Made by a program: the position numbers and the translations under genes. A model generated the notes under the pieces. It saw only the letters and a list, made by a program, of their open reading frames with translations, was not told the origin of the DNA and did no database searches. 25,334 nucleotides of DNA from a virus, in the IMG/VR virus record IMGVR_UViG_3300032214_000724, positions 1-25,334 of that record. One strand, written 5' to 3'. Positions 5,762 to 24,570 of the stretch are shown here, one piece after another. Each line of letters begins with the position of its first letter. Positions within the stretch are counted from its first letter, which is position 1.

Positions 5762-6289
5762 TCAAACAAATTCTTCTTCTAGAATAGTAGATTTAATATA
5801 ACTATAAACATTTTCGGGGGCAGTCTCTTCATAAGGATCAGAGTCTGCATTATCACGCTGACCATCTTCAACAAACAGTTTTTCAATAATACCGTTATTT
5901 ACCACAGCAGCGTAACGCCAAGAACGCTCACCGAATCCAAGATTTGACTTGCTAACGAGCATACCCATTGAACGAGTAAAGTATGCATTTCCATCGGGAA
6001 TTAGTTTTACGTTTTGAATATTTTGATCTTGTGCCCAAGCATTCATTACAAATCCATCATTCACTGAGATGCAGTAAATAGCATCAATACCAAGTGCTTT
6101 AAACTCTTCAAACTTCTCTTCAAATCCGGGAAGTTGATATGTAGAGCAAGTGGGAGTGAATGCACCAGGTAGTGAGAAAATCACTACACGCTTGCCATCA
6201 AAAAGTTCAGAAGATTTGCGATTTACAAACTCACCAGACTCACGAAATACAAACTCTACTTGTGGAATTTGATAACCTTCTTTACGCAT
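5762..6289 (-). CDS. Peroxiredoxin (Prx5/AhpC-TSA type), 175 aa
   Basis: This thiol peroxidase should reduce hydrogen peroxide and organic peroxides. FSLPGAFTPTCS carries the peroxidatic Cys48 in the TPTC context, and ERSWRYAAVV supplies the conserved Arg region of the Prx5 group. A second Cys (YCISVND) may or may not resolve. The frame opens further upstream, but GGAGGT lies 6 bases before the ATG at 6289, so I start there; an ATG at 6301 overlapping the hli stop (TGATG) is the alternative. It is the last gene of a photoprotection operon, where it would detoxify peroxide in the infected, illuminated cell. Confidence 0.88.
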   Translation of the reverse strand: MRKEGYQIPQVEFVFRESGEFVNRKSSELFDGKRVVIFSLPGAFTPTCSTYQLPGFEEKFEEFKALGIDAIYCISVNDGFVMNAWAQDQNIQNVKLIPDGNAYFTRSMGMLVSKSNLGFGERSWRYAAVVNNGIIEKLFVEDGQRDNADSDPYEETAPENVYSYIKSTILEEEFV

Positions 6290-6300
6290 TTTAACCTCCA

Positions 6301-6420
6301 TCAAAATACACCAGGAATAATTTGACCAGTAGTAGCATAAGTACCAATTGCAACAATAACTCCAATCATCGCTGCCCAACCATTAATACGTTCTGCTTTC
6401 TCAGTGAAAAGATTTTTCAT
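6301..6420 (-). CDS. hli: High-light-inducible protein (Hli), short form, 39 aa
   Basis: The 39-residue protein has the Hli/LHC-like single helix with the chlorophyll-binding signature ERINGWAAMIGVIVAIGTYA, where Glu, Asn and the helix Gly/Ala pattern are conserved. It ends with the usual GQIIPGVF. It should bind chlorophyll in the thylakoid membrane and protect photosystems under light stress. Its ATG overlaps the previous TGA (ATGA) and GAGGAG lies just upstream. Its stop overlaps the alternative start of peroxiredoxin (TGATG). Confidence 0.9.
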   Translation of the reverse strand: MKNLFTEKAERINGWAAMIGVIVAIGTYATTGQIIPGVF

Positions 6421-6581: not shown

Positions 6582-6667
6582 CAGTAAGTTTCTGCGACTT
6601 TCTCTACAGCATAACCCAGAAGTACAAAAAAAGCAACTGCTGTGAGTGTGAAGATTACTTCAGACAT
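6581..6667 (-). CDS. Single-helix mini-membrane protein, 28 aa
   Basis: The 28 residues are one membrane helix with a short polar tail (SEVIFTLTAVAFFVLLGYAV, then EKVAETY). The start and stop are both TGATG overlaps with the hli gene above and the 54-residue gene below. The size resembles the single-helix subunits of photosystem II or cytochrome b6f, but it does not match PetG, PetL, PetN, PsbM, PsbT or PsbX as I remember them. It may be an unrecognised small thylakoid protein. Confidence 0.55.
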   Translation of the reverse strand: MSEVIFTLTAVAFFVLLGYAVEKVAETY

Positions 6668-6876
6668 CAGAATACGCCGAAGAAGAAGTTTCCAGTTGCT
6701 GCATAAGAAATGATTCCAGCAACAAATCCCATCATTGCCCAACGTCCATTTGCCTGCTCTGCACGTTCTGCATAGGTGAGCATACCATACTTTTCGGCAT
6801 CGGCGTCAGAAATATACATCACAGGCTCTTTTGCCCACATATTCTGTTGTCCACGATCATTAGTCGTTACAGTCAT
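6667..6876 (-). CDS. hli: High-light-inducible protein (Hli), long form, 69 aa
   Basis: The C-terminal half holds the Hli helix with the chlorophyll-binding motif (ERAEQANGRWAMMGFVAGII, then SYAATGNFFFGVF). The N-terminal 35 residues are a soluble extension typical of longer phage and cyanobacterial Hli proteins. It is the first gene of the operon, about 22 bases after the predicted transcription start of a consensus promoter. It should bind chlorophyll and help dissipate excess light energy in the host thylakoid. Confidence 0.93.
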   Translation of the reverse strand: MTVTTNDRGQQNMWAKEPVMYISDADAEKYGMLTYAERAEQANGRWAMMGFVAGIISYAATGNFFFGVF

Positions 6877-6904: not shown

Positions 6905-6933
6905 ATTATATAGGAAAAAGAAAGGGGTGTCAA
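6905..6933 (-). promoter_or_regulatory. Perfect sigma-70 promoter for the hli-peroxiredoxin operon
   Basis: On the - strand TTGACA (6933-6928) is followed after exactly 17 bases by TATAAT (6910-6905). Both boxes are the exact consensus, so host RNA polymerase should read it from early infection. The predicted start is near 6898. The -35 box lies inside the hairpin of the porin terminator. Confidence 0.85.
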
Positions 6934-6940
6934 GCACCCC
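6911..6940 (-). terminator. Rho-independent terminator of the porin gene, overlapping the next promoter
   Basis: GGGGTG (6924-6929) pairs with CACCCC (6935-6940) around a 5-base loop. On the - strand the hairpin is followed by TTTCTTTTT. It lies 26 bases after the porin stop. The T-rich tract forms the spacer of the following hli promoter. Confidence 0.8.
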
Positions 6941-6965: not shown

Positions 6966-8483
6966 TCAGAACTTAAAGGTTGTCTGAACCAGAGCACCGA
7001 AGGTATCAAGACCATCAGTACCAGTAGGATTGCTCAGGTAGAACACAGCAGGAGTTACAGCAATCTTGTCAGTAACTTGCATCTTGTAATATGCCTCGAA
7101 AGCATAGTTGCCATCTTGAGCATTTACATCGTTCTGCTTGGTAACAAAAGTAGGTTGACCAACTGCAAATCCAAGGGCATTACCCTTAGCAAGTACATCC
7201 TTCCAAACCAGACCAGTATACCAAGACTGAGAAATGGTATCACCACCTTCAGTATAACCAGAGTTGTTATAACCCCAACCAGCAGAGATAGAGGGTGCCC
7301 AACCAGAGGTAGAAGGTTGCCAGTAACCAGCAAGAGAGAACGAGTTGGTCTGACCACCAGTTGTACTATTAGGAAGTGCAGAAGTCAGAGTAGGAGTACC
7401 CGAAATACTTACACCATTGTTGGAATAAGTATAAGCACCAGTCAGGTTCCAGTTCTTAGTTGTGTAGGCAAGTTGAGCAGTAGTAGAAGCAGCAGAGTTG
7501 CCGTTGAACATACCACCTTCAGCACTATCGCCCTTGTCTGCATCACCAGCAACATAGGCACCACCAAGGGTCCAATTACCTTTCTTAACCGAAGCACCGA
7601 AACCACCACCAAGAACCTTGCTGTAGGCACCAGGAGCACCGTTGAACTGGAAGATGTTCAGGATTTTATCAGCAGTGTAGACAGAAGGCCACACAGGCAG
7701 AATATCATCTTGACGAACACGAGGACCAGCAGTAATGGTTACATCCTTACCAGCAGGGAACTTGTAGTAAAGGCGATTGATAGCAACTACGTCACCACCA
7801 TCAGCACCACCAAGATTTTCTTGGAAACCAGCATCCAGTTTGGTGAGAGAAGTAGGTGCAGCACCAAATCCACTATCATCAAAGTTACCAGCACGAAGTT
7901 GAGTACGTAGCAGGTCTTTGCCAGTGAAAGATGTATCCAGGTTCAGTTTCACATCATAGTTGAAGGAAACTGCTTCACGAAGAGCATCATAATCATTCTT
8001 ACGGTCACCACCATACGAAAGACCACCCAGAACCCACTTGGTTTCACCACGCAGTTTGGTAGTGGTAGAGAATTGTTGTGCTTCCAGAGTACCAACTTGT
8101 GCTTCCAGTTTATCAACACGACCACGAATTACTGCAAGTTCAGCAGCAAACTCTTTTTGAAGACGATTGAGTTCATCAGTCACTTCAGTAACACGATCCA
8201 GGCAAGCATTCAGAAGTGCTGCTGCCTCATAGCGGGTCATTGCCTTACCACCACCGAAGGTGCCGTTAGGATAACCTGCTACACAACCATAACGCTCTAC
8301 AAGGGCAGAGAGTGCTCCATATGCCCAATCAGAGGGTTGGATATCAGAGAATTGAGTGACACTTGTTGCCTGCTCAGAGGAGTATTGATTGACTGCTGCA
8401 ATATTAAGGTCTGCTGCGTTCGCAACGGCAGGAGCAATCATACCAAGAGCAACAGGTGCAAGCATCAGTTGTTTGATTTTCAT
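6966..8483 (-). CDS. SLH-OprB outer-membrane porin of cyanobacterial type (Som-like)
   Basis: The 505-residue protein is a full-length porin, similar in size to cyanobacterial Som porins. It has a signal peptide (residues 1-23, cleavage near VANA-AD) and an SLH domain (about 45-98, FSDIQPSDWAYGALSALVER, with GYPNGTFGGGKAMTRYEAA) that anchors to wall-linked polymer. A coiled coil (about 96-137) follows, then an OprB-type beta barrel ending in the outer-membrane Phe signature (TTFKF). It should form a channel for small solutes in the host outer membrane. Base composition is clearly more GC-rich than its neighbours, and the start has no Shine-Dalgarno; both suggest recent capture from the host. 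Confidence 0.92.
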   Translation of the reverse strand: MKIKQLMLAPVALGMIAPAVANAADLNIAAVNQYSSEQATSVTQFSDIQPSDWAYGALSALVERYGCVAGYPNGTFGGGKAMTRYEAAALLNACLDRVTEVTDELNRLQKEFAAELAVIRGRVDKLEAQVGTLEAQQFSTTTKLRGETKWVLGGLSYGGDRKNDYDALREAVSFNYDVKLNLDTSFTGKDLLRTQLRAGNFDDSGFGAAPTSLTKLDAGFQENLGGADGGDVVAINRLYYKFPAGKDVTITAGPRVRQDDILPVWPSVYTADKILNIFQFNGAPGAYSKVLGGGFGASVKKGNWTLGGAYVAGDADKGDSAEGGMFNGNSAASTTAQLAYTTKNWNLTGAYTYSNNGVSISGTPTLTSALPNSTTGGQTNSFSLAGYWQPSTSGWAPSISAGWGYNNSGYTEGGDTISQSWYTGLVWKDVLAKGNALGFAVGQPTFVTKQNDVNAQDGNYAFEAYYKMQVTDKIAVTPAVFYLSNPTGTDGLDTFGALVQTTFKF

Positions 8484-8515
8484 AAAAATTTGTTTTTTGT
8501 ACTATAGGACAAATG

Positions 8516-8540
8516 TTAAGAATTACGACAGAATTCTTAA
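8516..8540 (-). repeat. 9-bp inverted repeat in the porin leader
   Basis: TTAAGAATT (8516-8524) and AATTCTTAA (8532-8540) form a perfect 9-base stem with a 7-base loop in the leader of the porin transcript. It shares bases 8532-8540 with the larger inverted repeat just upstream, so the two structures exclude each other. Confidence 0.6.
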
Positions 8541-8577
8541 GTACTTATTTAGTGTAATGGATACTTAAGATTCTGTC
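8527..8577 (-). repeat. Long inverted repeat enclosing the porin promoter
   Basis: The arm at 8527-8543 is complementary to the arm at 8562-8577, with one unpaired A in an otherwise perfect 16-base stem and an 18-base loop. The loop holds the predicted -10 box and one arm overlaps the -35 box. No T-run follows, so it is unlikely to be a simple terminator for the glycosyltransferase gene that ends at 8576. It could be an operator or a regulatory RNA structure. Confidence 0.6.
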
Positions 8578-8579
8578 AA
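8551..8579 (-). promoter_or_regulatory. Candidate sigma-70 promoter of the porin gene
   Basis: On the - strand a perfect TTGACA (8579-8574) is followed after 17 bases by TACACT (8556-8551), two mismatches from TATAAT. The predicted start is near 8544, giving a leader of about 60 bases. The -35 box overlaps the stop codon of the upstream glycosyltransferase. Confidence 0.6.
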
Positions 8580-15278: not shown

Positions 15279-16472
15279 TCAATATCTAGATTTACGTTCA
15301 ATTAGCATCATTGGCTTTCCACTCTCAACAGCACCACGTACTGCTTTGAGAACATCTACGCCAGTCACAGGGTCAATCACAGGGAAACTCACTGCAGATC
15401 TAAACATATTAGTAAAGTCTTGTGAGTGTGTAATCCCAGAGTAGAAAGGTCCAGCATCAGCAGTCACGGCACGAATAATCACAGGAACTTTAAATTCGCC
15501 ATGAGAAATTCTTTCAATCTTATCAATGTGATTGATAATAGCATCTGCAGCAACTAACATAAAGTCATGACGTTCATAGTAAAGAACGGGAATGAATCCC
15601 TCAAATGACATACCAATCGCAAGTCCTGCCATAAGATTTTCGGCAACAGGAGTTTCAAGTTTCTGTTCTTTAGGAACACCCTTAAGAGTTCCCATTGCAT
15701 CGCCATAAGCAACATTATACCCAATGAAAATAGCGCCAGATTCACCAAGTTCTGTCATGGACTGAACGATAGCATCCTTGTATGAAATATCAGTTTGCTC
15801 AATTTCTGGATATACAAACTCCTGAAGAAGGGGGAAATATTCCTCATCAGTTTTCTTAACTGCCTTGGAAAGATCAATCATGCCAGGTTTACGGCAATGA
15901 GGATAGGTGCAATTATAAGTATATCGAATAACTGAAGGAGAGTTCCATTCAGGATGTGCTGTCTTGCCCCAACGATCAGAATTACTTGCCTCACAAGACC
16001 TATCGTTACTTTCGATTACAAAAGTGCAAGGAAGATCCCACCCATCAACATATCTGATTGCTTCTGCAAGATGTCCATTATCTTCAGTACCATCACCAAC
16101 AAAGCACCAAACTTTTTGACTAGAACCTTTACGTTTTAGAGCCCAAGCAATACCAGCAGCAATTGCTGGAGTTCCGCCAATAATAGCAGAAAGGAAGAAA
16201 TTGCGTTGCCTATCGTAGATAAACATGCTTCTTCCATTCAAAATTCTATCCTCCACATCTTCGGGAGGAACTCCATGAAGAAGGGCATGATAATGATTAC
16301 GATGATTTGAAATTACATAATCATCTTCATTAATGTTTTCAAAAATTTCAATCAGTTTATCTTCATTTCCCCCCGATAAATGAAAAAGAAATGGAAGTTT
16401 ATTATCGAGATATAGATCTCCAATATGGTCCTCAAAGGCAATCAGTTCTTCCTTAGTCCACTTCTTTCTCAT
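15279..16472 (-). CDS. Compact fused E1 alpha/beta thiamine-diphosphate enzyme
   Basis: In 397 residues this protein joins what are usually two chains. The alpha-like part (about 1-200) has GGTPAIAAGIAWALKRKG and the ThDP motif GDGT (126-129) to ESND (Asn156). The beta-like part (about 230-397) has KLETPVAENLMAGLAIGMSF with catalytic-type Glu278, and HIDKIERIS. The transketolase C-terminal domain of normal E1 beta is missing. Such enzymes cleave or form C-C bonds next to a carbonyl. Its overlap with the alcohol dehydrogenase gene (ATGA) suggests a shared path to an unusual sugar or acyl precursor. The exact reaction is unknown. Confidence 0.8.
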   Translation of the reverse strand: MRKKWTKEELIAFEDHIGDLYLDNKLPFLFHLSGGNEDKLIEIFENINEDDYVISNHRNHYHALLHGVPPEDVEDRILNGRSMFIYDRQRNFFLSAIIGGTPAIAAGIAWALKRKGSSQKVWCFVGDGTEDNGHLAEAIRYVDGWDLPCTFVIESNDRSCEASNSDRWGKTAHPEWNSPSVIRYTYNCTYPHCRKPGMIDLSKAVKKTDEEYFPLLQEFVYPEIEQTDISYKDAIVQSMTELGESGAIFIGYNVAYGDAMGTLKGVPKEQKLETPVAENLMAGLAIGMSFEGFIPVLYYERHDFMLVAADAIINHIDKIERISHGEFKVPVIIRAVTADAGPFYSGITHSQDFTNMFRSAVSFPVIDPVTGVDVLKAVRGAVESGKPMMLIERKSRY

Positions 16473-17488
16473 ACAAGTTCCTCTGCAATTTTAATCATAA
16501 TTCTACCAGCATTTCCAGTTTTTAGCAAATTAAATGCATCATTAATCTGGTCTAATGTAAATGTATGAGTTATTAGTTTACTTACATTCAATAGTCCCTC
16601 ATTATGCAATCTAATATATCGAGGAATATCTTCCTGAGGATTTGTTTTGCCACCTTGTGTTGCTTTAATACTTTGCCCAATACCATTAAAAAGATTGACA
16701 GCATTCATTACTTCAACAAACTTTCCTGGGGCAGGTTGTCCCACCAGAATCATTCTACCAGTATTTGATAGAATAGAAATACCTTGACTAATAACTTCAG
16801 GAATACCAGTAGTATCAATTACAATATCAACCTTACCTTCAATTTGATCGATAGAAGTATAAAACTTATTTGCACCAATATCAAGGCACATCTGCTCTTT
16901 ACTGAGATTATTATCCACTGCAATGATAGGACAAGCACTCTTCATTGCTGCTGCCTGAATCAAATTCAACCCAACACCACCAGTTCCAATAACTGCAACA
17001 CTCTCACCAAACTTCAGATCAACTTCATTATCAATAATTCCCATTGCAGTCGTAAGAGCACAACCAAGAATAGCACAAAGTTCTGGAGGAGTATCTTGAG
17101 GAACGCTGGTTAATCTATTTTCAGATACAATCGAATATTCGCTTAGAGTAGTTACTTTACCACTACTCATAGACTTTCCATCAAGAACATAACTTGGGAA
17201 TGGTGCCTCAATGCCAGTTCCAGGACGCCAGTGCATTACAACCTTATCACCAACCTTAACGGTTGTTACACCATCTCCAACTGCCTCAACAATTCCACAT
17301 CCTTCGTGCCCCATCAAATGAGGAAGAAACTTAGCATTTCCCTTGTGCCCCCTAATCTCATGAAGTTGAGCACCACAGAGACCACTCACAAGGATTTTAA
17401 CAAGAACTTGACCTACTTTTAATTCGGAAAGTTCTACATCTTTAATCACAAGTGGTTTATCAATTTCTACTAATACTGCTGCTTTCAT
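16469..17488 (-). CDS. Zinc-dependent alcohol/polyol dehydrogenase (MDR family)
   Basis: The 339-residue medium-chain dehydrogenase has the catalytic zinc site Cys38 (SGLCGAQLHE) and GHEGCGIVEAVG (His61, Glu62). Its Rossmann motif is AVIGTGGVGLN. The structural-zinc Cys cluster of many family members is absent; MHWRPGTGIEAPFPSYV occupies that region. It should interconvert an alcohol and a carbonyl with NAD(P). It is translated just before the fused E1-type enzyme, so the substrate may be the product or precursor of that enzyme (inference). The gap to the upstream gene is 5 bases. Confidence 0.88.
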   Translation of the reverse strand: MKAAVLVEIDKPLVIKDVELSELKVGQVLVKILVSGLCGAQLHEIRGHKGNAKFLPHLMGHEGCGIVEAVGDGVTTVKVGDKVVMHWRPGTGIEAPFPSYVLDGKSMSSGKVTTLSEYSIVSENRLTSVPQDTPPELCAILGCALTTAMGIIDNEVDLKFGESVAVIGTGGVGLNLIQAAAMKSACPIIAVDNNLSKEQMCLDIGANKFYTSIDQIEGKVDIVIDTTGIPEVISQGISILSNTGRMILVGQPAPGKFVEVMNAVNLFNGIGQSIKATQGGKTNPQEDIPRYIRLHNEGLLNVSKLITHTFTLDQINDAFNLLKTGNAGRIMIKIAEELV

Positions 17489-24447: not shown

Positions 24448-24570
24448 CGTCAGGTCTTTCATGCACGCCACTTGCCCTTTGACTGGAGGCAAGAAACCAG
24501 GCGGGAGAGAGTCCCATCCGCACCAACGTCATTTGAGAGATGCCGTAAACTCATAGAGGGTCATATTTGA
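24436..24570 (+). CDS. Possible 44-aa + strand gene in a GC-rich stretch
   Basis: ATG at 24436 is preceded by AAGGAG with 5-base spacing and opens 44 codons to TGA. The product is Arg-rich (MQLSRQVFHARHLPFDWRQE, then TRRERVPSAPTSFERCRKL). The same DNA has open short frames on the - strand, including 31 codons (SLRHLSNDVGADGTLSRL) and an 11-codon frame (MTLYEFTASLK) preceded by GGTGGAG. The stretch is more GC-rich than its surroundings and has several stems, such as CTTGCC with GGCAAG. It could be a small gene on either strand or a structured RNA; I cannot choose. Confidence 0.3.
   Translation: MQLSRQVFHARHLPFDWRQETRRERVPSAPTSFERCRKLIEGHI

Follow-up and report, generated by a model that had tools for sequence, protein, structure and literature searches.

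A candidate porin cassette in cyanobacterial viruses: SLH-OprB barrels related to different host porins behind a leader without the Yfr1 site

Certain viruses of freshwater cyanobacteria appear to maintain a standing phage cassette for an outer-membrane porin. It would consist of a sigma70 promoter, a hairpin leader, a signal peptide, an SLH domain and a coiled coil, would accept exchangeable barrels from host porins, and would be uncoupled from the near-universal small RNA Yfr1, leaving the virus to set the porin of the infected cell. We judge the chances of this proposal, taken as a whole, to be about even. Porin identity, the mosaic of modules, the promoter, the absence of the Yfr1 site and purifying selection are features read from sequence comparison. 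The mosaic structure and the replaced leader are more informative facts than the presence of a porin.

The porin gene and its neighborhood

The window, meaning the whole stretch of DNA analyzed, has 25,334 bases and is a linear virus record from IMG/VR. On its minus strand, positions 6966-8483 encode an SLH-OprB outer-membrane porin of 505 residues from an ATG start. The signal peptide (residues 1-23, 8415..8483) has n-, h- and c-regions and ends in ANA before AD; by eye, the N-terminus, MKIKQLMLAPVALGMIAPAVANA followed by ADLN, resembles a signal peptide. It is succeeded by an SLH domain at residues 45-88 (8220..8351; PF00395, E 5.2e-11), coiled-coil helices at residues 103-138 (8070..8177) and an OprB-type barrel at residues 141-505 (6969..8063), all on the minus strand. 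The OprB model PF04966 matches residues 104-505 (E 1.5e-21), and both Pfam matches lie above curated cut-offs. NCBIfam model NF033921 (por_somb), whose family name is iron uptake porin, spans residues 40-505 at 309 bits (cut-off 100), a full-length match to the SomB family. An AlphaFold2 model of moderate confidence (mean pLDDT 68.5, pTM 0.61), built from an input alignment of 36 sequences without the row for the isolate phage S-SRM01, has helices at residues 103-111 and 113-138 and then 16 strands within 141-504, which puts a 16-strand barrel behind the SLH domain and coiled coil. Its top fold match in the PDB is OprB of Pseudomonas putida (4gey); OmpM1, an SLH porin of Veillonella (8bys), is also high among the matches. 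On this evidence the gene product is a SomB/OprB-type porin, for which ion conduction and iron uptake are predicted. An earlier note, made from the letters of this DNA, had described a signal peptide, SLH domain, coiled coil, barrel and terminal Phe. The open reading frame, Pfam, NCBIfam and AlphaFold2 bear this description out, and the last residue is Phe.

The same note had called the flanking genes phage genes, which agrees with the families found there (endolysin, phage peroxiredoxin, phrog_848, phrog_591 and phrog_452) and with a cyanophage wcaG RNA. The latter, a cis-regulatory RNA (RF01761, 98.7 bits) at 24457-24554 on the minus strand, heads the glycosyltransferase/epimerase cluster. 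The sugar-nucleotide and glycosyltransferase cluster of the window is large, and such genes adjoin the porin both here and in most viral loci. Downstream of the porin lie an intrinsic terminator read from the sequence (GGGGTG-cttga-CACCCC plus a T run; 6913..6940, minus strand) and a high-light-inducible (hli) gene recognized by its 69-residue translation (6667..6876, minus strand); 57 viral loci have an hli gene no more than 6.5 kb downstream. The upstream neighbor, a family 25 glycosyltransferase gene (PF01755; 8576..9394, minus strand), has counterparts in 54 viral loci, at most 6.5 kb upstream. Downstream of the porin, 55 viral loci have a gene for ferritin-like Dps and 36 have peroxiredoxin.

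Several other features of these regions were observed. Another short hli-like ORF, 39 residues long (6301-6420, minus strand, start at 6420), lies right before the peroxiredoxin gene of the window, whose true start is probably at about 6289-6301 and not at TTG 6379. Within the sugar cluster, 15279-17488 (minus strand) encodes an E1-dehydrogenase/transketolase-like protein and a zinc alcohol dehydrogenase, unusual company in a phage surface-sugar island. PhotoRC-II RNAs occur close to the porin in loci L014 and L251. The contig of L035 (G161) encodes two different full-length porins, at 62669-64165 and 77472-78953, about 15 kb apart, and therefore one phage can hold two porin slots. The porin is often found directly behind tRNA genes, as in S-SRM01 (L002:14797-14868) and in L045, L072, L078, L228, L248, L279, L282 and L285; the SLH gene of phage S-PM2 is likewise behind tRNA genes, and it may be at the tRNA cluster that captured genes enter. 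At the start of the phage tRNA cluster, S-SRM01 (L002:14165-14201) and L259 (6318-6354) have an abiF RNA (RF03085, 49 bits, cut-off 37). Neither of these two records yielded an Abi_2 protein gene, and an orphan phage abiF RNA could be a decoy against a host AbiF system.

Mosaic of N-terminal module and barrel

Relatives of the porin occur by the hundreds among IMG/VR viral contigs. A first scan, with an N-terminal peptide as bait, returned 84 of them, and a second scan with barrel peptides only returned at least 535 stretches. Trees were built from 43 viral representatives and 65 host porins, the latter encoded by members of the Vulcanococcus/Synechococcus/Cyanobium family, with the protein split into residues 1-146 and residues 147-505. 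For residues 1-146, 40 of the 43 viral rows form one starred clade, the other three having another signal peptide, and no viral row groups with any of the 65 host porins. The signal peptide is almost identical among viral porins whose barrels differ, and few parts of the protein are as constant as the SLH module.

The tree for residues 147-505 places viral rows in at least four positions, three of them beside different host paralogues, and forces four changes. The barrel type of the window stands beside a porin of a Vulcanococcus genome (host locus L101), that of L023 beside host L197 (75% identity over the whole protein), and that of L070 and L073 beside host L181. The large S-SRM01 group has a further, separate place in the tree. 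The barrel is in this sense nested among host genes, whereas the N-terminus stands apart from all host porins tested. Since viral barrels are scattered beside different host paralogues, a single viral barrel origin is rejected. The AU test agrees: one clade of all viral barrels is rejected (p 2e-56), one clade of all viral N-termini is not (p 0.88), and for the N-terminal data, joining the clade of the window to the host of its barrel is rejected (p 0.0008). The first-pass trees were quick searches with SH-aLRT support; when the barrel tree was repeated with bootstraps on 54 rows, it gave four changes throughout the 5-95% range.

At the DNA level, the window and L027, a locus with another barrel type, are 84-97% identical over the first 90-100 codons. 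Identity drops to about 60-64% across the coiled coil, at about residues 105-140, the zone where similarity breaks among viral porins with differing barrels. Recombination near the coiled coil would be the simplest account of the mosaic. The N-terminal bait of the first scan could favor shared N-termini, and the barrel-only scan served as the control: the phage N-terminus was still dominant, other N-termini (MFKSAF type) being in the minority, and the mosaic result stands. The minority signal peptide, MFKSAFAAT..., was seen in L237, L239, L240, L249, L253, L256 and L288, with barrels of the S-SRM01 group; porins of this type have their own conserved leader, CATCCGCAGG...CTCTGCGAGAAAATATAGAGGTACTT.

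The porin leader and Yfr1

The sequence GTGTGAGG, complement of the conserved ACUCCUCACAC in the small RNA Yfr1, occurs in 62 of 68 distinct host porin leaders, counted for proteins with a typical porin start and excluding some with uncertain starts. Its core begins 10-19 bases upstream of the start codon and overlaps the Shine-Dalgarno position. None of 85 distinct viral leaders has this site, and at their ribosome binding region the viral leaders lack the GUGUGAGG-type site that marks a Yfr1 target. Of 61 host-family genomes, 47 have Yfr1, which was directly read in five of these. The computed duplex with the Yfr1 core averages -17.6 kcal/mol for host leaders (shuffled -9.8), as against -3.7 kcal/mol for viral leaders, which is no better than shuffled (-4.2).

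In E. coli, a reporter with the leader of Prochlorococcus porin PMM1121 is repressed 4.7-fold by Yfr1 (PMC6778093). Homologous porins are among the predicted Yfr1 targets of Nostoc, and the expression of Yfr1 changes little in the strains tested (PMC6974561). With experiments confined to Prochlorococcus MED4 and Nostoc, we infer from the pairing that Yfr1 controls the host porins considered here, and from the computed loss of pairing that the phage porin escapes Yfr1 repression. The porin is probably made in infected cells whatever Yfr1 does. Loss of the site may be a by-product, because a phage gene needs its own leader anyway.

What the viral leaders contain instead is well exemplified by the window. 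A sigma70-type promoter, read from the sequence, has TTGACA (8579-8574), a 17-base spacer and TACACT (8556-8551), together 8551..8579 on the minus strand. Such a promoter, with at most two mismatches, is present in 68 of 94 viral leaders, compared to 4.6% of shuffled leaders. A TAAATA-type sequence, possibly a late promoter, occurs in 63 of the 94, and for this reason early timing is not certain. The promoter is followed by a hairpin, TTAAGAATT-CTGTCGT-AATTCTTAA (8516..8540, minus strand), also a reading of the sequence. Most viral leaders have a hairpin at the same place, with stem sequences unrelated between groups; the hairpin stretch has a mean z of -2.65, against -1.01 for the stretch before it.

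Next comes the conserved leader motif TGTCCTATAGTAC (8499..8511, minus strand), then an A/T-rich spacer and the ATG, without a Shine-Dalgarno sequence. In its strict form, TGTC[G/C]T[A/T]TAG[T/A]A, the motif has 92 occurrences in 2.0 Mb of viral loci, all at porin starts, and none in host loci. The two largest genomes, the 240-kb S-SRM01 genome and a 248-kb contig, have the exact motif once each, at the porin. A general phage signal or antisense target was considered for the motif and rejected, as it occurs only before the porin in 2 Mb of viral loci. About a third of viral leaders, some of them directly behind tRNA genes, are missing the strict motif. The viral leader has no Rfam match in the sources scanned.

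Possible roles, viral ownership and known systems

In the proposed mechanism, host sigma70 polymerase would transcribe the porin from its strong, probably early promoter, and translation from a phage-type leader without the Yfr1 pairing site would be insensitive to Yfr1 in the cell. Leader, signal peptide, SLH domain and coiled coil would act as one phage-type module, and barrels would have been captured from different host porin paralogues via recombination near the coiled coil. The protein would insert into the host outer membrane, with its SLH domain tying it to the cell wall. During infection it would repopulate that membrane, an anchored porin supply that host Yfr1 cannot switch off. The payoff would be influx of iron and inorganic ions and an outer membrane kept intact as host porin synthesis falls.

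That an anchored, Yfr1-proof and probably early phage porin pays mainly in ion (iron) influx and a sound outer membrane is the reading we favor, tentatively and at slightly less than even chances. The Dps and peroxiredoxin genes nearby and the iron role of the family favor ion supply. Porins of the SLH-OprB class help to take up micronutrients and to keep the outer membrane stable, and the relative Slr1908 is important in both iron uptake and vesiculation (PMC8707739). The earlier note had proposed uptake, superinfection exclusion and envelope support, each of which may apply to the phage porin.

Exclusion, to which we would give perhaps a third of the probability, would have the phage porin and the nearby glycosyltransferases dilute, replace or mask the porin receptor of competitors, with barrel exchange tracking receptor types. 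The glycosyltransferase and sugar-nucleotide genes adjoining the porin fit exclusion as well as they fit uptake; the promoter looks early, and barrels swap while the anchor stays. The SLH protein of S-PM2 also points this way: its transcript is among the earliest and most abundant, and infection protection has been suggested for it in a review that also records the absence from cyanophages of the T4 r genes, which are involved in superinfection (PMC2984593). In the clade of the window, however, surface loops vary (0.147) only slightly more than strands (0.090) and no more than periplasmic turns (0.160). Because the turns vary as much as the loops, there is no clear surface-driven diversification, and loop diversification was set aside as proof of exclusion; loop variation does not decide between uptake and exclusion. 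Moreover, none of these porins is known to us as a cyanophage receptor.

We think it unlikely that the porin is mainly an envelope tether, SLH-bound to steady the outer membrane of a virion-filled cell and to delay leakage or vesiculation until timed lysis, with the pore incidental. The constancy of the SLH module, the raised vesiculation upon loss of Slr1908 (PMC8707739) and the endolysin genes close by would suit such a role, but purifying selection is equally strong on barrel and N-terminus, and a mere tether has no need of barrels from several host porins. Very improbable is a passenger, that is, a host gene acquired by chance and useless to the phage. The porin sequence is host-like and there were several captures, yet dN/dS between viral porin copies is 0.06-0.26, well under 1, with dS reaching 0.8, and this purifying selection already disfavors a passenger, as do the ameliorated GC3 and a leader and neighborhood conserved over many contigs.

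The earlier note had stressed the raised GC content of the gene. The porin does exceed the window (46.1% against 34.9%), but the argument misleads. The excess is confined to codon positions 1 and 2 (58% and 48%), and GC3 is 0.32, near that of phage neighbors (0.18-0.31) and far from that of host porins (0.71-0.86), so that base composition does not point to a recently inserted host gene, and the GC excess was rejected as a sign of recent host DNA.

The central claim of the note, a phage-borne full-length SLH-OprB porin, has strong support. It had called for a database search with a tree and for a search of other cyanophage genomes. Viral relatives were found, the tree is not confined to one host genome, and the porin is present in bona fide phage genomes: a full-length copy in S-SRM01, isolated from a Singapore reservoir, and copies on many independent viral contigs, with the T4-type major capsid gene gp23 on 8 of 20 larger porin contigs, including the 83-kb L223, whose barrel is of the window's own type. 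Among 50,697 phage records, no other isolate had a full-length match. An assembly chimera of phage and host DNA, to which the GC step at the porin gene might point, has a negligible probability and was ruled out by the S-SRM01 copy, the gp23 contigs, the phage-like GC3 and the order of family 25 glycosyltransferase, porin, hli, peroxiredoxin, C39 peptidase and lysozyme, which recurs in the independent contigs L007, L014 and L015. Viral relatives, gp23 contigs, the isolate copy, recurring gene order, GC3 and dN/dS together argue that the porin gene is old in phages and selected.

If the mosaic, Yfr1-proof cassette is real, a virus evades host small-RNA control of the cell envelope by swapping the leader of a captured gene, and a phage outer-membrane protein undergoes modular barrel exchange. 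Simple, direct tests of the cassette could show how cyanophages benefit when they remodel an infected cell's surface, in a group of freshwater cyanobacterial viruses that is abundant and for which S-SRM01 is the one isolate found with the porin gene.

A phage porin of the SLH-OprB kind is not new as such, since GenBank annotates the S-SRM01 copy as a porin. That protein (QPX48248.1; Synechococcus phage, Kyanoviridae) resembles the one in the window in its full-length SLH-OprB architecture, its leader motif and a similar neighborhood, but it is 52% identical and has a barrel of another lineage; its annotated start is six codons too late, and the S-SRM01 paper does not mention it. The literature searched, with few subscription journals in it, contains no prior report of the mosaic or of the missing Yfr1 site. 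The Lc porin of the lambdoid phage PA-2 is also phage-encoded and is said to supplant OmpC of the host and to block superinfection. Unlike the phage type of the window, PA-2 is a temperate enterobacterial phage, and its porin has no SLH domain.

The SLH proteins of S-CREM1 (UYA57656.1) and S-PM2 (CAF34233.1) share a related SLH domain and coiled coil with the window porin, and the S-CREM1 leader has a promoter, a hairpin and a related motif like those of the viral porins; both proteins, however, have about 280-290 residues and no OprB match. Viral OmpL, which accompanies amtB and glnK in viruses of oxygen-poor ocean water (PMC8115048), is likewise an outer-membrane porin carried by phages and interpreted as a nutrient gene, but it is of Bacteroidetes type and belongs to other hosts. 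Cyanobacterial SomB or SLH-OprB porins (NF033921; Slr1908, Slr1841) have the same domain order and full-length family match, whereas the porin of the window is phage-encoded and has a phage-type N-terminus and a leader without the Yfr1 site. Prochlorococcus PMM1119 and PMM1121 are porins as well, and their leaders pair with Yfr1 (PMC6778093), whereas the computed duplexes of the phage leaders show no such pairing.
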